Below are positions 4,373-13,343 of a DNA stretch of 45,956 bases, piece after piece; position 1 is the first letter of the stretch, and each line of letters opens with the position of its first letter. Location: positions 1 to 45,956 of the forward strand of contig NZ_FUGE01000102.1 of NCBI RefSeq assembly GCF_900162825.1, read 5' to 3'. The stretch comes from Psychrobacter piechaudii. Its GTDB lineage: Bacteria; Pseudomonadota; Gammaproteobacteria; Pseudomonadales; Moraxellaceae. The translations under genes were made by a program, and so were the position numbers. The notes under the pieces are model-generated. The model saw only the letters and a program-made list of their open reading frames with translations, was not told the origin of the DNA and ran no database searches.

Positions 4373-4903
4373 ATGATTTATGAATTTATTGCCACGATAA
4401 CTGCAGGCTTTGGTATGGCTGGTATCGCCATGATTATCCGCCATCTTACTAAGTTTGCGGGCAAACAGGCCCCAAAATGGCTCATTCCCATTTTTGCAGC
4501 GATCGGCATTTTAGGCTTTCAAATTCATCAAGAATACAATTGGCAACAGCAGCAGATAGACAGGCTACCTGAACAAGTAAAAGTGGTAAAGACAGTTGAA
4601 GGACAGGCTTGGTATCGCCCTTGGAGCTACCTAAAACCGCAAGTAATTCGCTTTATGGCGGTTGAGGCAGGCGAGCCGCTTGGCTCTGATATTAATCCGA
4701 CCACAGCAGATATTAGACGCAGTAATATCTACTTGTTTGAAAGACGCATTAGCACCAAAATCATTCCACAGCTGGTCAACTGCCAACAACCTGCCATCAC
4801 CAGCTTAACCACCAAAGCCCCTTTGTCTGCCGCTACTTTTAAACAGCTGCAATGGCAACCTTTAGCCGCTGACGATGAGATTTTGCAAGTAGTTTGTCAG
4901 TAA
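4373..4903 (+). CDS. Uncharacterised membrane-anchored protein
   Basis: I do not recognise this 176-residue protein. It has two N-terminal hydrophobic segments, about residues 5-24 and 36-53, the second preceded by the basic stretch GKQAPKW. A soluble region of about 120 residues follows and contains WYRPWSYLKPQVIRF near residue 85. The C-terminal half has two cysteines (the NCQQ motif and VCQ at the end) that could form a disulfide if the domain is periplasmic. It sits alone, between the terminator of the symporter unit and a convergent gene that ends 29 bases away. No function is claimed. Confidence 0.7.
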   Translation: MIYEFIATITAGFGMAGIAMIIRHLTKFAGKQAPKWLIPIFAAIGILGFQIHQEYNWQQQQIDRLPEQVKVVKTVEGQAWYRPWSYLKPQVIRFMAVEAGEPLGSDINPTTADIRRSNIYLFERRISTKIIPQLVNCQQPAITSLTTKAPLSAATFKQLQWQPLAADDEILQVVCQ

Positions 4904-6359: not shown

Positions 6360-7652
6360 ATGACCGATAAAATAATTCACCCTGCTCCTCTGGATAATGC
6401 AACAAACATAACTTCAAATGATACTTCACCTAACCACGATACTTTACCCTCTTTAACCAACATTGTGGTTATTGGCGCAGGCTACGTGGGCTTATCCAAT
6501 GCCGTTTTATTGGCCCAGAAACATCTAAATACCCAAGTCACGCTGTTTGACATCGACCAAAATAAGATAGAGCTGTTACAACAAAATAAATCTCCGCTAC
6601 AAGACACTGAGATTTGTGATTATCTGGCCAATAAACCGCTTAATTTAACCGCCACGTCGCAATCAGAATCAGTGATAGATAATCAGGGCATTTATCAAAA
6701 TAGTGATCTAGTAATTATTGCCACCCCGACTAACTATGATGTGGCTTCAGGAAAATTTGATACCTCCTCGGTTGAAGCTAGTATTGCTGCGGTCCGAGAG
6801 CAAAACGCTATTGTGCCCATCGTCATTAAGTCGACCATTCCCATTGGCTTTACCGACAGCATGCGTCAGCAATTTGACAGCCAAATTCTATTTATGCCGG
6901 AGTTTTTACGTGAAGGCCAAGCCCTGTATGACAACTTATATCCGTCACGTATCATTGTTGGCGCAACCAAGCAGCAAGCCTTAGCAACGGCCTTAATGCG
7001 CTTATATCAACAAGCCAGCCTAACACCTGAGGTGGCGACCCTTATGATGCCACCGACTGAAGCTGAAGCGGTGAAGCTATTTGCCAACAGCTATCTGGCT
7101 ACCCGAATTGCTTTTTTTAATGAATTAGACAGCTTTGCTGAGAAGCATGAGTTAAACAGCCAATCAATTATTACAGGCGTTGGCTTAGATCCCCGTATTG
7201 GTCAGCATTATAACAACCCGTCATTTGGTTATGGCGGCTATTGCCTCCCTAAAGATACACAGCAACTTAAAGCCAATTACGCCGGTATTCCCGCCAACTT
7301 AATCCATGCTGTGGTCGATGCCAATAATACGCGTAAGCGCTTTATCGCCCGTCAAATTATTGATAAAAACCCCAATCAAGTAGGGATTTATCGACTAAGC
7401 ATGAAAAAAGATGCTGACAATTTTAGAGATTCGGCAGTGCTTGACGTAATTAATACCCTCAAGCAGCATGGTATGAGTATCACTATCTATGAGCCGGCTT
7501 TAGACACCGACAGCTTTGAAGGTTGCCAGGTGATTAATGAGTTAGACCGCTTTAAACAGCAAAACGACTTGATTGTTGCCAACCGCTGGCACGATGAGTT
7601 ATCTGATGTCAAAGCTAAGGTTTACTCAAGAGATGTGTTTGGCTATAGTTAG
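6360..7652 (+). CDS. ugd: UDP-glucose 6-dehydrogenase, short (E. coli Ugd) type
   Basis: Ugd oxidises UDP-glucose to UDP-glucuronate with two NAD+, making a capsule precursor in the cytoplasm. The protein follows E. coli Ugd closely: NAD-binding IGAGYVGLSN (38-47), IATPTNYD, KSTIPIGFT, MPEFLREGQALYDN, PTEAEAVKLFANSYLATR with the catalytic Lys and Asn, and FGYGGYCLPKDT with the nucleophilic Cys. I start at the ATG at 6360 (430 residues). The frame is open back to a TTG at 6243, but that part reads unlike any Ugd. Even so, about 34 unrelated residues precede the usual start. The gene is followed by phosphomannomutase on the same strand, 102 bases on. A dead relative lies nearby at 9363-10700. 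Confidence 0.93.
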   Translation: MTDKIIHPAPLDNATNITSNDTSPNHDTLPSLTNIVVIGAGYVGLSNAVLLAQKHLNTQVTLFDIDQNKIELLQQNKSPLQDTEICDYLANKPLNLTATSQSESVIDNQGIYQNSDLVIIATPTNYDVASGKFDTSSVEASIAAVREQNAIVPIVIKSTIPIGFTDSMRQQFDSQILFMPEFLREGQALYDNLYPSRIIVGATKQQALATALMRLYQQASLTPEVATLMMPPTEAEAVKLFANSYLATRIAFFNELDSFAEKHELNSQSIITGVGLDPRIGQHYNNPSFGYGGYCLPKDTQQLKANYAGIPANLIHAVVDANNTRKRFIARQIIDKNPNQVGIYRLSMKKDADNFRDSAVLDVINTLKQHGMSITIYEPALDTDSFEGCQVINELDRFKQQNDLIVANRWHDELSDVKAKVYSRDVFGYS

Positions 7653-7754: not shown

Positions 7755-9233
7755 ATGACCACACCTAGTATTTCTGACACTCTTAATAAAAATAATGATA
7801 CTTTAACCCATCGCCCCATTACTTCCTTTAAAGCTTATGACATTCGCGGTGAGCTCGGCGTTAATCTAGATGAAGACATTGCTTATCGTATCGGCCGTGC
7901 TTTTGCTCAGATTTTAGCCTGTCAAAAAGCGGACAGTGAAGGTGATGAGAGCTTAGAGAACAGCATTGTTATCGGCTGCGACATCCGTGACTCAAGTGAA
8001 ACATTAAAGCAGGCGACCATTCGCGGTATTGTTGATGCAGGCGTTGATGTGATTGATCTAGGCATGACCGGTACCGAAGAGGTGTATTTTGCCACCAGCC
8101 ATTATAATGCGTTAGGTGGTATTGAAGTCACCGCCAGTCACAACCCCATCAATTACAATGGGCTAAAACTGGTGCGTGAAGGTTCAAGGCCGATTAGTGC
8201 GGACTCTGGTCTGGCAGAGATTCAAGCTTTGGCAGAACAAGGTAGCTTTGCTGCCTCTGATCAATTAGGTAAAGTAGTAGAGAAGTTTGATAAAACTGCC
8301 TATGTCGATCACTTAATGAGCTTTATCGATACCGATAAGCTAGTACCGTTAAAGATTGTCATTAACTCAGGTAATGGCAGTGCTGGACCGACCGTAGATC
8401 TGTTACAGCAGCGTTTACAACAAAAAAATGCCCCCATTGAGATTATTAAAGTACACCACACCCCAGATGGCAGTTTCCCCAATGGCATCCCCAATCCTAT
8501 GATTTTGGCCAACCGTGACTCTACCAAACAAGCGGTTATTGATAATAAAGCCGACTTAGGTATCGCCTTCGATGGCGACTTTGATCGCTGCTTCTTATTT
8601 GATGCTCAAGGTGAGTTTGTCGAAGGCAGTTATGTGGTTGGGATGCTCGCCCAAGCCTTCTTACAAAAGCATCCCGGTGCGGCCATCGTTTATGACCCTC
8701 GCGTGCTTTATAACACCGAAGCACTTATCGCAGAGGGTGATGGTGAGGCAGTGATTAGCAAATCAGGCCACTCTTTTATTAAGCAAGTCATGCGTGAATC
8801 AGGAGCCGTCTATGGCGGTGAAATGAGTGCTCACCACTACTTCCGTGACTTCTTTTATTGCGACAGCGGTATGATTCCTTGGCTACTAACCATTGAGCTG
8901 TTATCGACCACCGGCAAATCATTAGGTCAATTGGTCAATGAGCGTATCAGCGCCTACCCAAGCTCAGGCGAGATTAACTTTAAACTGACCCAAGCCAGCA
9001 GCGATGAAATCATTAGCGCCATTGAAGACTACTTTAGTACGCAAAACCCCGATAAAAACACTTTGGATGGGCTGAGTCTAGACTTTGGCCAGTGGCGTTT
9101 TAATATTCGTGCCTCCAACACTGAACCCTTAATTCGTCTCAATATCGAGACCAAGGGTGATGAAGCTTTATTGACTGAAAAAACTGCCCAAATTAAGCAG
9201 TGGTTGGCCACACAAGGGGCTAAGCTTGCTTAG
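7755..9233 (+). CDS. manB: Phosphomannomutase / phosphohexomutase (ManB/CpsG type)
   Basis: This alpha-D-phosphohexomutase interconverts hexose 6- and 1-phosphates. Its closest pattern is ManB/CpsG: FKAYDIRGELG near residue 25, GMTGTEEVYFAT, the phosphoserine loop TASHNPINYNGLKLV, the metal-binding loop FDGDFDRCF, GGEMSAHHYFRDF for sugar choice, and RASNTEPLIRLN for phosphate binding. All catalytic parts are present in 492 residues. Many members accept both mannose and glucose phosphates, so it may also act as phosphoglucomutase and feed galU. Position matches the pgm gene that ends the Acinetobacter capsule locus, converging on the pgi side. A bidirectional terminator follows. Confidence 0.9.
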   Translation: MTTPSISDTLNKNNDTLTHRPITSFKAYDIRGELGVNLDEDIAYRIGRAFAQILACQKADSEGDESLENSIVIGCDIRDSSETLKQATIRGIVDAGVDVIDLGMTGTEEVYFATSHYNALGGIEVTASHNPINYNGLKLVREGSRPISADSGLAEIQALAEQGSFAASDQLGKVVEKFDKTAYVDHLMSFIDTDKLVPLKIVINSGNGSAGPTVDLLQQRLQQKNAPIEIIKVHHTPDGSFPNGIPNPMILANRDSTKQAVIDNKADLGIAFDGDFDRCFLFDAQGEFVEGSYVVGMLAQAFLQKHPGAAIVYDPRVLYNTEALIAEGDGEAVISKSGHSFIKQVMRESGAVYGGEMSAHHYFRDFFYCDSGMIPWLLTIELLSTTGKSLGQLVNERISAYPSSGEINFKLTQASSDEIISAIEDYFSTQNPDKNTLDGLSLDFGQWRFNIRASNTEPLIRLNIETKGDEALLTEKTAQIKQWLATQGAKLA

Positions 9234-9284: not shown

Positions 9285-9323
9285 AAAAATCCCGTTAACC
9301 AATTTTGGATTAACGGGATTTTT
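9285..9323. terminator. Bidirectional terminator between convergent manB and the Ugd-like gene
   Basis: AAAAATCCCGTTAA (9285-9298) and TTAACGGGATTTTT (9310-9323) form a 14-bp perfect stem with an 11-base loop. A runs on one side and T runs on the other let it work from both directions. It lies between two converging genes. Confidence 0.9.
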
Positions 9324-9362: not shown

Positions 9363-10700
9363 CTACTTACTGCGGCCAATACCTTGATAATCACCAGTCA
9401 GTGACTGTATTTGATCCTTAGTAAACGCATTTTGGGCATCAAATACCGGTATCACCACCTCATTAAGGGCACTGATTGGTAGACGCTTGGTCTCTGGCCA
9501 TGACAATACAAATAAGGCATCACAATCCGCCAACTGCTCGGTTGGACTCTCAATGAACTGCAATAAAGGCTGATCAGGATATAGTCCTGCCAACTCGCTT
9601 TTCGCCTCTGATGCATAAACCTGAGTGGTAATGTTATAAGACCACAGCAAAGTTAATAACGGGTGAATAGCCGCTTCAGAGGTGCGACCTGAACCTGATT
9701 TATAGCTTGCACCCCAAATAGAGACCTGTTTATTCTCAATAGCCCCATCAAAATACTGCCAAAATTTACGGAAAATAAGCTCCTTTTGATCATTATTGAT
9801 AAGATCCACCGCTTGCATTAAACGGTGATCTACTTGAGTGTGCGCCAAGGTTTGCTGTAATGCGTTAATCTCAGCCGGCAAGGTTGTGCCACCAAAGCCC
9901 CACCCTGCCTTCAGGTAGCTACTACCAATACGAGTGTCTAACCCCATAATGTCAGCCACTTCTTGAATATCTACCCCTTGATGATCAGCGAGTCTGGACC
10001 ACTCGTTCATAAAGCTAACCCGAGTGGCAAGCATACTCATGATGGCACTACGCGAGAATTCGATAGTCGCAATATCACTGATATAACTGCGCTGAGCTTG
10101 AGCAATTAAGGGTTGTAATATCGCCACTTTATCTATTGAGTCGGCTGTCTTTTCTCCCATCAGCCATAGCTTAGGCGAAAGCATTGAAAGGTAGGCGCTA
10201 CCGTCTTGTAAAAATACAAAGGGTACGTAATAAACCCAAGGACGTTGACAATAATCAGCAATATTGGCAAAAACTCCCAAAGTGCTAATACCACTTATGA
10301 TCACTGGAGTTTGACTGGGAACTTGGCTTTCATTCATCTGAGTTACCCAAGCCGGCTTATTGTCACTACTCTGACACCAAGTCTCAGGCAAGTCACTATG
10401 AAACAGCCAGTATAAACTCGCAACTTGCTGAGTAAATACTTCAGTCGCTTGTTCTGGAATAGGCTGTACCACGATATTTTTTTGGTTTAGATACAGCTGC
10501 CATAAAGCTTGCTGCTGATACTCGAATTTATAGTTGGTCAAGGTATGTTCTAGCTGTTGTTGATTGGTATACAAGCTGACCTTATTTCCCAAACTCACCA
10601 TCACTGTAGCAGTGGTAATGGCATCAATTGAGTGACCCACAATTACGCACGGGTTGTCTTCTGAGCTTTTACTGGTCTTAACATAGGCGGGCATGTTCAT
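9363..10700 (-). CDS. UDP-glucose dehydrogenase-family protein lacking catalytic residues (probable pseudoenzyme)
   Basis: This 445-residue protein keeps the layout of a long-type Ugd but not its chemistry. The dimer-core helix reads SMLATRVSFMNEWSRLA (222-238), and the segment before the usual active-site loop reads MGLDTRIGSSYLKAGWGFGG. The loop itself, normally GGSCFPKD, is GGTTLPAE: the nucleophilic Cys is Thr273, and Lys and Asp are Ala276 and Glu277. The ExxKxxxN motif is E214-R217-M221. The first Rossmann turn, normally GxGxxG, is GHSIDA (22-27), and the Asp ending strand two is Thr. The third domain is recognisable (WGASYKSGSGRTSEAA). The frame is intact, so it is not a decaying pseudogene. 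It starts at ATG 10700 with AAGGA upstream, downstream of galU and pgi. A structural or regulatory role is possible. Confidence 0.8.
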   Translation of the reverse strand: MNMPAYVKTSKSSEDNPCVIVGHSIDAITTATVMVSLGNKVSLYTNQQQLEHTLTNYKFEYQQQALWQLYLNQKNIVVQPIPEQATEVFTQQVASLYWLFHSDLPETWCQSSDNKPAWVTQMNESQVPSQTPVIISGISTLGVFANIADYCQRPWVYYVPFVFLQDGSAYLSMLSPKLWLMGEKTADSIDKVAILQPLIAQAQRSYISDIATIEFSRSAIMSMLATRVSFMNEWSRLADHQGVDIQEVADIMGLDTRIGSSYLKAGWGFGGTTLPAEINALQQTLAHTQVDHRLMQAVDLINNDQKELIFRKFWQYFDGAIENKQVSIWGASYKSGSGRTSEAAIHPLLTLLWSYNITTQVYASEAKSELAGLYPDQPLLQFIESPTEQLADCDALFVLSWPETKRLPISALNEVVIPVFDAQNAFTKDQIQSLTGDYQGIGRSK

Positions 10701-10755
10701 CAAATATCATCCTTTTTATTGTTTTTCATAACTTTATTATTGTTAATGCTCACGC

Positions 10756-12438
10756 TTACTTTTCTTCAATTTGTTTATTAATATGCTGTAATAAAGCCTG
10801 AGTAGAGCTGTCAAAAGTGGCTTGTTCTTCTACAGCTGCACTTGACTCAGGTTTTACTAAATGAATATGAGCAAAGACTTCATCAGCCACTTTTTTACCC
10901 ATCTCCACACCCCATTGATCAAATGGATTAATGTCCCAAAGACTGGCCATGACAAACACTTTATGTTCATACAAAGCAATTAAGGCACCAAAGCTAGTTG
11001 GCGTCAGCTCATCCAATAAAATAGTGGTCGATGGCTGATTGCCGCGATAGCGTTTGAATTTGTCCAATTCTGATACTTCTTGCCCAGGTTTAGCAGCAAG
11101 CGCCTCGTTACCAAAAGCTAGAACGCGACTTTGCGCCAAGCAGTTGGCCAACGACAAAGCATGTTGACGCTTTAGTTCACTAGATTCAGAATCTTGATAA
11201 TAATTGACGCAGGCAATGAAATCACAAGATACTTTTTGGGTGCCTTGATGCAGCAGTTGATAAAAAGCATGCTGCGCATTAGAGCCAATTTCTCCCCATA
11301 AAATTGGGCAGGTGGCATAGGTTACAGGCTGACCGTCATGGGTCACTGACTTACCATTACTCTCCATTTCAAGCTGGGTTAAGTAGCTTGGAAAGTATTT
11401 AAGACGACCATCATAAGGTAGCACGGTATGGGCATTAATATCTAAAAAGGTACTGTTCCAGACCCCAATCAATCCCAATAACACCGGTAAATTCTGATCA
11501 AAGTCAGCATGTAAAAAATGCTGATCCATCGCATAGGAGCCTTGCAGCATTTCATTGAAGCGCTCAGTACCGATGCGAATAGCCACTGCTAAGCCAATGG
11601 CCGACCACATTGAGAAACGGCCTCCAACCCAGTCCCAGAGCTTCAATTGGTGCTCTGGGGCAATTCCCCAAGCACTGACTCTCTCAGGATTAGCAGAAAT
11701 ACCAATAAAATGTCGGCGCAGTAAGGTGGTTTTACTGGCTCCTGTGCTCAGCAGCCACGCTCGAGCCGTCTCCGCGTTAGATAAGGTATCCACAGTACCA
11801 AAGGACTTAGAGGAGATGATAAATAACGTCGTTTCTGGATTAAGGCGCTCCAACAAGCTACCCAATTGAGTGCCATCCATATTAGACACAAAGTGGACTT
11901 CAATGTCACTGTCTGCCCACTCATCGAGCGCAGTATTGGCCATAACCGGGCCCAAATCTGAGCCACCTACCCCAATATTAACCACATCGGTAATGGCTTT
12001 ACCCGAGTAACCGCGCCAGATACCATTGCGGATTCGGCTCACCAAGTCTGCTGCTTTATCTAGGCTATCATGGACCTCTGCCACCACATCTACACCTTGG
12101 TGGGATAGGTTGGCGGTCTTTGGCAGACGCAGGGCAGTGTGTAGCGCCGCTCTATCCTCACTACTGTTTACCTTGTCGCCTTGATACAGGCTGTGGATTC
12201 TTTGCTGCAAGCCACAAGCTTCCGCTAACTGAATCAGTTGATTCTTGACGGATTCATCTAACAACTGCTTGGAGTAATCAAAATAAACCCCTGCCGCCTG
12301 GACGCTAAACTTTTGTGCTCTATCTTGCTGCTGATCAAATAGCTGCGTTAAAGACCAAGGCTTTTGTGCTAACTGTTGTAGCTGTTGCCACTCAGGCAAT
12401 TGAGTGGGTAAAGAATTATTTCTGCTGGCGTTCATCAT
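10756..12438 (-). CDS. pgi: Glucose-6-phosphate isomerase
   Basis: Pgi interconverts glucose 6-phosphate and fructose 6-phosphate, linking central metabolism with sugar-nucleotide supply. At 560 residues it is close to E. coli Pgi (549). Visible signatures are VNIGVGGSDLGP, FISSKSFGT-like IISSKSFGTVDT, the PGI signature DWVGGRFSMWSAIGL, GSNAQHAFYQLLHQG, and the C-terminal NPFDQWGVEMGKKV carrying the catalytic lysine. The gene begins 26 bases after galU ends, and the Ugd-like gene follows 55 bases later, so the three form one operon. In Acinetobacter capsule loci galU, ugd and gpi are also adjacent. Confidence 0.97.
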   Translation of the reverse strand: MMNASRNNSLPTQLPEWQQLQQLAQKPWSLTQLFDQQQDRAQKFSVQAAGVYFDYSKQLLDESVKNQLIQLAEACGLQQRIHSLYQGDKVNSSEDRAALHTALRLPKTANLSHQGVDVVAEVHDSLDKAADLVSRIRNGIWRGYSGKAITDVVNIGVGGSDLGPVMANTALDEWADSDIEVHFVSNMDGTQLGSLLERLNPETTLFIISSKSFGTVDTLSNAETARAWLLSTGASKTTLLRRHFIGISANPERVSAWGIAPEHQLKLWDWVGGRFSMWSAIGLAVAIRIGTERFNEMLQGSYAMDQHFLHADFDQNLPVLLGLIGVWNSTFLDINAHTVLPYDGRLKYFPSYLTQLEMESNGKSVTHDGQPVTYATCPILWGEIGSNAQHAFYQLLHQGTQKVSCDFIACVNYYQDSESSELKRQHALSLANCLAQSRVLAFGNEALAAKPGQEVSELDKFKRYRGNQPSTTILLDELTPTSFGALIALYEHKVFVMASLWDINPFDQWGVEMGKKVADEVFAHIHLVKPESSAAVEEQATFDSSTQALLQHINKQIEEK

Positions 12439-12464: not shown

Positions 12465-13343
12465 TTAGGCTTGTAACTGCTGCTCAGCAAAGTAGATAAA
12501 GGCCTTCATATAGCTGGTCATATCGCCTGCATCAAAGCTTTCGCCCAGCATAGTGGTGATATCTACCCCTTGAGTACTGATTAGCGCATCAATGGCATCG
12601 GTCAGCTGAATCTCACCGCCCACTGAAGGCTTTGTCTCGGCTAAATAATCAAAAATAGAAGCGGTAAAGACATAACGCCCCACCACGGCCAAGTTAGAAG
12701 GCGCATCCGCTAACTGTGGTTTTTCGACAAAGCCTGCTACTGCAAAGTTGGCATTTTTATCATCAGATAATTGTTCCAGTTGATCGGCCTCTTTTAGCTT
12801 AGCAATACCATATTTATGCACGTCTTCGTCAGCCACAGCACTCACTAAGATTTGAGAATGGTTACTTTGCTCAAAGCTCTGAATCATATAGGCCAGGTTG
12901 TCTTTGTCCATATCGGTAGTGAATGGGTTAAGCACCACGTCAGGCAGCAATACCGCAAAAGGATTGTCGCCTACGATAGGACGCGCCTTTAATACCGCAT
13001 GGCCTAGGCCTAAGGGCTTGCCCTGACGAATCATAGATACTGACACATCCTCTGGTAACCAGTTTAAGCTATCAGCAAGCTCCTCTTTACCCTTAGCCCG
13101 TAGCTGATTGTCTAGCTCAGCATTGACATCAAAGTAGTTCTCGATGGCGCTTTTTTGGGCATGACCCACCAACACAATGTGCTTAATACCTGCAGCAATG
13201 GCCTCTTCAATGACGTAATGAATGGCCGGACGATTGCCTAGTGGTAACAGCTCTTTGGGCACAGACTTTGATAAAGGCAACATACGGGTACCGAAGCCGG
13301 CAACAGGGATAACAGCATGAGTAACTTGAGTGGTCATAAGCAT
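12465..13343 (-). CDS. galU: UTP-glucose-1-phosphate uridylyltransferase
   Basis: GalU makes UDP-glucose from UTP and glucose 1-phosphate. The nucleotide-binding start is complete (VIPVAGFGTRMLPLSK, then SVPKELLPLGNRP), as are GLGHAVLKARP, LLPDVVL, VAGFVEKP and the sugar-binding GGEIQLTDAID. At 292 residues it is the usual bacterial length. Two in-frame ATGs lie at 13343 and 13337; neither has a strong ribosome site, so the start is uncertain by two residues. It heads the galU-pgi-Ugd-like operon. Its product would feed the active Ugd encoded at 6360-7652. Confidence 0.97.
   Translation of the reverse strand: MLMTTQVTHAVIPVAGFGTRMLPLSKSVPKELLPLGNRPAIHYVIEEAIAAGIKHIVLVGHAQKSAIENYFDVNAELDNQLRAKGKEELADSLNWLPEDVSVSMIRQGKPLGLGHAVLKARPIVGDNPFAVLLPDVVLNPFTTDMDKDNLAYMIQSFEQSNHSQILVSAVADEDVHKYGIAKLKEADQLEQLSDDKNANFAVAGFVEKPQLADAPSNLAVVGRYVFTASIFDYLAETKPSVGGEIQLTDAIDALISTQGVDITTMLGESFDAGDMTSYMKAFIYFAEQQLQA

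Follow-up and report, generated by a model that had tools for sequence, protein, structure and literature searches.

The long-type UDP-glucose dehydrogenases (Ugd; TuaD/BceC/3gg2 type) and the 'Ugd' of the Acinetobacter K locus (galU-ugd-gpi-pgm; PMC3628348) are the closest described systems to a protein encoded in a 45,956-nucleotide stretch of Psychrobacter piechaudii DNA, hereafter the window. This protein belongs to a clade of Cys-less Ugd-family proteins, for which we coined the name UgdX. UgdX shares with the long-type Ugd the fold, the central dimerisation helix, the G.GFGG loop and the R of RIG, and UgdX relatives outside the sub-branch of the window also share most of the UDP-domain invariants. 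However, UgdX lacks the catalytic Cys and the NAD signature and forms a separate clade. The Acinetobacter K-locus 'Ugd' resembles the window protein in family, operon neighbourhood and Cys loss, but it has kept Lys204, the UDP domain and Asp264, which is preceded by His or Gln, whereas the window sub-branch has lost more. In the part of Kenyon and Hall (2013; PMC3628348) available to us, the Acinetobacter K-locus ugd is listed as a producer of UDP-GlcA. According to the available text of PMC9676051, ugd is present in every A. baumannii K locus and D-GlcA is attributed to ugd2-ugd5. The A. baylyi ADP1 model (PMC2606687) gives the name 'ugd' to ACIAD0072 and not to the gene flanked by galU (ACIAD0099) and pgi (ACIAD0101), and the excerpted text of that paper leaves the latter gene unnamed. 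Within the open-licence PMC literature, covered largely as titles and listings, we found no published inactive Ugd and no mention of the missing Cys.

In the window, ugdX is the last gene of a galU-pgi-ugdX run, and the genes adjoining it are precursor-supply and TCA genes. The features of the locus are as follows.

9363 to 10700, minus strand: UgdX, a predicted non-catalytic UDP-glucose dehydrogenase-family protein of 445 aa (frame reading, Pfam, alignment and structure model).
10710 to 10715, minus strand: Shine-Dalgarno-like AAGGA, about 10 nt upstream of the ugdX start (sequence reading).
10620 to 10637, minus strand: GHSIDA, residues 22-27, where the NAD-binding GxGxxG turn would be (alignment).
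10038 to 10052, minus strand: RSAIM, residues 217-221, where the catalytic Lys204 and Asn208 would be (alignment).
9870 to 9905, minus strand: GWGFGGTTLPAE, residues 266-277, where G.GYGGSCFPKD would be, with Thr273 in place of Cys (alignment).
10756 to 12438, minus strand (same strand as ugdX): pgi, glucose-6-phosphate isomerase, directly upstream of ugdX.
12465 to 13343, minus strand: galU, UTP-glucose-1-phosphate uridylyltransferase, first in the run.
7755 to 9233, plus strand: pgm-type phosphohexomutase, convergent with ugdX.
About 6360 to 7652, plus strand: Ugd with an intact active site, from the short E. coli/S. pyogenes subfamily; it did not arise by recent duplication of ugdX.

The ugdX frame is open over 9363-10703 on the minus strand, giving 446 codons from a TTG at 10703 or 445 from the ATG at 10700. 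The P. piechaudii genome contains a single ugdX and, at about 6360-7652, the canonical Ugd of the short type. The possibility that ugdX is a recent duplicate of this neighbouring ugd was rejected because that Ugd belongs to another, distant subfamily. Between the convergent ugdX and pgm, a by-eye reading found an inverted repeat (AAAAATCCCGTTAATCC..GGTTAACGGGATTTTT, window 9285-9323), which looks like a two-way terminator. Elsewhere in the window, two long frames (599-1789 and 4373-4903) had no Pfam match at E ≤ 1e-6.

Catalytic residues (Lys204, Asn208 and the Cys) are numbered here after S. pyogenes Ugd. By alignment, window UgdX has Arg217 for the Lys, Met221 for the Asn and Thr273 for the Cys, and in the GGxCxPKD loop Ala276 and Glu277 replace the Lys and the Asp. 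In the NAD region, GHSIDA stands instead of GxGxxG and the acidic ribose ligand Asp has become Thr45. The neighbouring Ugd, in comparison, keeps the Cys, Lys, Asn and Asp. The alignment and frame reading thus bear out the first-pass annotation, which had described an intact frame with a ribosome site, these losses at the catalytic positions and in the GxGxxG turn, and an active Ugd encoded nearby. Consistent losses were seen at the level of domains. In Pfam, the central domain PF00984 of window UgdX scored 80.4 bits against a cut-off of 25.4, the UDP domain PF03720 fell below threshold (23.6 against 30), and the NAD domain PF03721 was absent from the matches at E ≤ 1. Several UDP-domain invariants are lost in the window sub-branch (e.g. 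DGRN to DAQN). For the NCBIfam nucleotide sugar dehydrogenase family TIGR03026, window UgdX scored 125.1, under the cut-off of 189.8, and the A. nosocomialis UgdX passed it at 193.9 despite having no Cys. The fold itself appears intact. Among PDB entries, window UgdX is closest to the UDP-glucose dehydrogenases 3gg2 (match starting at residue 164) and 2y0c (starting at residue 195), and its structure model (pLDDT 92.1, pTM 0.87) has the Ugd fold, with 3gg2 as the best Foldseek match (E 2.9e-28, TMq 0.78). The model of A. nosocomialis UgdX (pLDDT 89.6, pTM 0.84) best matched 2y0d (TMq 0.94).

UgdX homologues were found in all 105 genomes of the window's genus, the best piece showing 37-98% identity with the window itself excluded. 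We aligned 145 Moraxellaceae UgdX proteins, comprising those of all 105 genomes of this genus (code g1) and 40 others. None of the 145 has the catalytic Cys; the position is occupied by Thr (115), Ser (25), Ala (2), Asn (2) or Gly (1), and within the window's genus by Thr in 104 of 105 and Ala in one. Lys204 is replaced by Arg in every UgdX of g1 (105/105), g10 (19/19), g7 (6/6) and g14 (1/1), and is still Lys in most of the remaining 14. The ugdX frame is intact in 142 of the 145 genomes; in G050, G075 and G186 it is split or cut, and for these the longest open piece alone was used, unmended. In G050 and G075 the gene lies in two frames; both are less complete genomes, and sequence errors are possible. 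Nei-Gojobori dN/dS for ugdX (23 pairs, 20 with a value) ranged from 0.023 to 0.262 with a median of 0.078, the top value coming from a pair with dS of only 0.01, and the comparison gene pgi gave a median of 0.050 (22 values). By these ratios, ugdX is under purifying selection that is slightly weaker than that on pgi. The homologue search with active-site alignment and dN/dS, which had been proposed as a check of the first-pass reading of a selected, fold-intact pseudoenzyme, therefore agreed with that reading: a dead site and purifying selection occur together across species, with the same losses in 105 of 105 genus genomes and dN/dS of about 0.08. As judged from these alignments, it is well supported that UgdX is dead yet conserved, and UgdX is very probably a conserved non-dehydrogenase.

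The Cys loss extends to Acinetobacter. A scan of named genomes covered the query's close relatives only, the best 80 of 480 confirmed loci being from Acinetobacter, Advenella and one Alcaligenaceae MAG. Asn occupies the catalytic Cys position in all of these best 80 of 480 loci, mostly within GGENFSHD, and AEFTK is kept in the same 80 but with Ser at Asn208. The first-pass annotation had placed an active ugd at the same operon position in Acinetobacter, and this claim fails on the Asn found there. A loss specific to the window lineage, with an active copy in Acinetobacter, was rejected on the same evidence. Since the Acinetobacter operon copies also lack the Cys, its loss is old and not peculiar to the window lineage. 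The gene order galU-UgdX-pgi was found in 75 of the best 80 of 480 loci; of the other five, three have an extra ugd before galU, one a second galU frame, and one no galU within the stretch. In 30 of these 80, the end of ugdX and the beginning of pgi share 4 nt, with starts assigned by rule. One locus each came from A. baumannii (L257), A. venetianus RAG-1 (L217) and A. baylyi (L205). The L257 UgdX shares only 65% identity with its A. nosocomialis counterpart and is perhaps a member of the rarer ugd group described in the available part of PMC9676051. Four of the best 80 of 480 loci (L234, L236, L240 and L248), from Advenella and the Alcaligenaceae MAG, carry an Acinetobacter-like UgdX with 64-66% identity, and the galU-UgdX-pgi order was seen in L234 and L248, the two non-Acinetobacter loci viewed in detail. 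Advenella and Alcaligenaceae are Betaproteobacteria. The resemblance suggests a putative lateral transfer of the galU-UgdX-pgi module into Advenella and the Alcaligenaceae MAG.

Cys-less UgdX is distributed beyond the family. A census of 293 genomes of the order detected it in at least 43, belonging to families f1 (Moraxellaceae; 11), f36 (11), f37 (10), f43 (10) and f26 (1), and all 43 proteins were Cys-less when read for the active site. Among the best 30 loci of a class census (229 genomes) were the window itself, three further Cys-less loci, all beside pgi, and 26 canonical loci with Cys. In a 63-row tree, built by a quick method without bootstrap, a branch with an SH-aLRT support of 100 separated the 43 Cys-less rows from the rest, and the canonical rows all had the Cys. 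The window protein falls inside this clade and has the galU/pgi neighbourhood. The stem of its sub-branch measured 2.21 changes per column in this tree, and with nearly matched taxa it measured 1.88 for UgdX versus 0.27 for Pgi, about seven times as much. Therefore, a second burst of change followed the old Cys loss in the window sub-branch. Outside this sub-branch, 23 relatives keep Lys204 in 22 cases, Asn208 in 14 and Asp264 in 13. Intact homologues elsewhere combined with relaxed selection here, which the first-pass annotation had named as evidence against a pseudoenzyme, were thus not found as regards the Cys, but Lys204 and Asn208 are intact in these relatives in the numbers just given. 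We considered W314 as a strict family-wide signature and rejected it, for it was present in all 43 tree rows, yet several f37 rows had no match.

To describe which half of the protein is kept, we used 143 columns in which 37 canonical rows agree (≥95% invariance). On average, the 23 relatives that fall outside the window sub-branch keep a share of 0.40 of the NAD columns, 0.65 of the central columns and 0.79 of the UDP columns, and Pfam on three of them agrees that the NAD half is lost and the UDP half kept. NAD invariants being the lowest and UDP invariants the highest, NAD binding is what the UgdX family gave up. In the 20 rows of the window sub-branch the shares are 0.25, 0.53 and 0.38, respectively. 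For the active short-type Ugd of the window, taken as a control, the columns kept number 33 of 59 NAD, 30 of 48 central and 10 of 36 UDP. The UDP half thus appears to be retained in most UgdX and not in the window sub-branch, although, as the control shows, activity is compatible with departures from the UDP columns too.

These features point to an old Ugd-fold family that has very probably lost its dehydrogenase chemistry. We tentatively favour, at something short of even confidence, a protein without catalytic activity that would serve as accessory or sensor in a Pgi-GalU UDP-glucose module, with a partner and a ligand that we infer; a specific part in UDP-glucose supply, whether regulatory or accessory, is itself a tentative assignment. 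In this module, Pgi converts fructose-6-P to glucose-6-P, followed by Pgm, and GalU yields UDP-glucose, with UgdX as a possible accessory or sensor subunit. A known parallel, by analogy only, is the trypanosome AdoMetDC prozyme, described in the accessible text of PMC6221367, in which a dead paralogue acts as a regulatory partner. However, the partner there is the active paralogue, whereas UgdX is linked to Pgi and GalU, which have other folds.

The distribution of UgdX tracks one Pgi subfamily and the galU/pgi neighbourhood rather than the active Ugd. A same-strand pgi lies within 700 nt of ugdX in 142 of the 145 Moraxellaceae loci; the three missed by this count are G062 and G117, where UgdX is less than 200 nt from a contig end, and G194, at 710 nt. 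In the window's genus, pgm is on the opposite strand in 103 of 105 loci and a same-strand galU is present in 78 of 105, many of the remaining stretches being short. Across the 293 order genomes, 44 encode a Pgi whose score against Acinetobacter Pgi is 578 bits or more; the rest score at most 515 or have no match, eight genomes being without any Pgi match. Of these 44 genomes, 43 contain a UgdX whose sequence was read. In the remaining 249 genomes, the best Ugd-family match was read in 72 and had the Cys in all 72, 52 had an unread match at E ≤ 1e-100, and 125 had no match at E ≤ 1e-100; as best matches alone were read, the 43 UgdX genomes are a lower bound. The 44th genome, G331, has no UgdX beside pgi and a single Ugd-family match, unread and of unlisted place. 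The pairs are adjacent in 32 of 43 genomes, and the 11 f36 pairs lie apart yet involve the same Pgi subfamily.

Absences were also joint in part. UgdX had no match in 14 Moraxellaceae genomes. Nine of these lack pgi as well, six of the nine having a completeness of 90% or more; another four encode a divergent Pgi, and the last, G115, encodes the usual type. G331 and G115 are possible exceptions to the UgdX-Pgi link. In G115 (L342), a Pgi stretch with five in-frame stops adjoins a weak UgdX-like piece of 97 aa and pgm; this is possibly a joint pgi/UgdX relic, the match being weak. Seven of the nine genomes lacking both UgdX and pgi also lack a convincing galU, and therefore en-bloc loss of the operon explains much of the joint absence; G119 (68% complete) has a partial galU. 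In all eight genomes of the Moraxellaceae genera g3, g4 and g6 (L344-L350 and L353), a divergent pgi, in G121 a fragment, stands beside a canonical Cys-bearing Ugd, so Pgi-Ugd neighbourhoods also occur with a live Ugd. The co-occurrence of UgdX with the Pgi subfamily may be due to the common ancestry of a small number of families (f1, f36, f37, f43 and f26), and for this reason its tiny Fisher value means little.

It is possible, although unlikely, that UgdX serves GalU or the general UDP-glucose pool and that the tie to Pgi is operon history. In f36, ten of 11 UgdX genes lie by galU and none by pgi, and therefore GalU is an equally good partner candidate in that family. The galU-UgdX-pgi order of 75 of the best 80 of 480 Acinetobacter/Advenella loci, with four more carrying an extra gene or a second galU frame, is also in keeping with such a role. 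However, eight of the ten f37 loci have pgi but no galU within the stretch, and G184 keeps galU (73% identity) without any UgdX or pgi match.

A little more doubtful is an enzyme with changed UDP-sugar chemistry, acting through the conserved Lys and Asp and a new Ser or Asn. The retention of Lys204 and Asp264 outside the window sub-branch (22 and 13 of 23) would fit this, as would the uniform Asn, mostly within GGENFSHD, at the Cys site of the best 80 of 480 Acinetobacter/Advenella loci. The NAD-binding invariants are gone, however, and the Cys position varies across the family among Ser, Asn, Gly, Ala, His, Tyr and Thr, unlike a catalytic residue. Moreover, the window sub-branch is without the Lys and Asn as well.

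An improbable alternative is that UgdX scaffolds the assembly of surface glycans and has no part in precursor supply. According to the available text of PMC9676051, UgdX lies within the Acinetobacter K locus. In the accessible part of PMC10904470, phage-resistant A. baumannii carried IS insertions in gpi (five isolates), pgm (one) and ugd (one), together with one glycosyltransferase mutant, and the ugd insertion led to phage resistance like those in gpi and pgm. That insertion may nevertheless act by polarity on gpi, and the precursor-supply and TCA genes beside ugdX in the window do not suggest glycan assembly.

The first-pass annotation had proposed a partner, scaffold or inhibitor of Ugd or Pgi. 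The Pgi part of this fits better, given the subfamily co-occurrence, and the Ugd part is disfavoured as quite improbable. UgdX and Ugd share the dimer-helix domain, and an active-type ugd is close by in the window and in some relatives. However, the window's active Ugd is of a distant subfamily, and the short (E. coli)-type Ugd was undetected (best E above 1e-20) in 41 of the 105 window-genus genomes, all of which have UgdX; 38 of the 41 are at least 90% complete and four are single contigs. The long-type canonical Ugd was found at E ≤ 1e-75 in none of the 105, in a search that contained no positive control, and the order search, which did detect the canonical Ugds of other genomes, included eight window-genus genomes with one match each. 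Since 41 of 105 genomes are without either searched kind of Ugd, UgdX is not simply a Ugd partner. The Ugd query itself recovered 30 window-genus loci, 29 with Asn208, Cys260, Lys263 and Asp264 intact and one outside the pattern. Finally, that ugdX is a decaying gene kept by short time alone, for which the long stem of the window sub-branch might speak, is ruled out for practical purposes by the low dN/dS, the intact frame in 142 of 145 genomes and its presence in all 105 genomes of the genus.

Returning to an accessory or sensor protein of the Pgi-GalU module, most UgdX would use the retained UDP-sugar half to bind UDP-glucose, the end product, and would modulate or stabilise Pgi (or GalU). 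Because the UDP half is eroded in the window sub-branch as well, window UgdX may act mainly by protein contact, and the loss of UDP-domain invariants there would weaken ligand sensing, yet the active short-type Ugd itself has no more than 10 of 36 such columns. A more specific form, a retired Ugd that binds UDP-glucose, contacts its dedicated Pgi subfamily and tunes the gluconeogenic entry of carbon into UDP-glucose as an end-product sensor, is conceivable but on the unlikely side. If true, it would mean that a Pgi regulatory subunit has long been overlooked in Acinetobacter and many Pseudomonadales, masked by the name Ugd.

In the available portions of PMC3628348 and PMC9676051, the gene common to all A. 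baumannii capsule loci is labelled as the maker of UDP-glucuronate. Should UgdX prove to be no dehydrogenase, a wrong label underlies capsule sugar predictions, metabolic models and enzyme work on UgdX. A non-dehydrogenase UgdX would also help explain the extra ugd2-ugd5 gene that the available text of PMC9676051 assigns to capsules with D-GlcA. The new question is then what function a dead Ugd would have beside Pgi and GalU.
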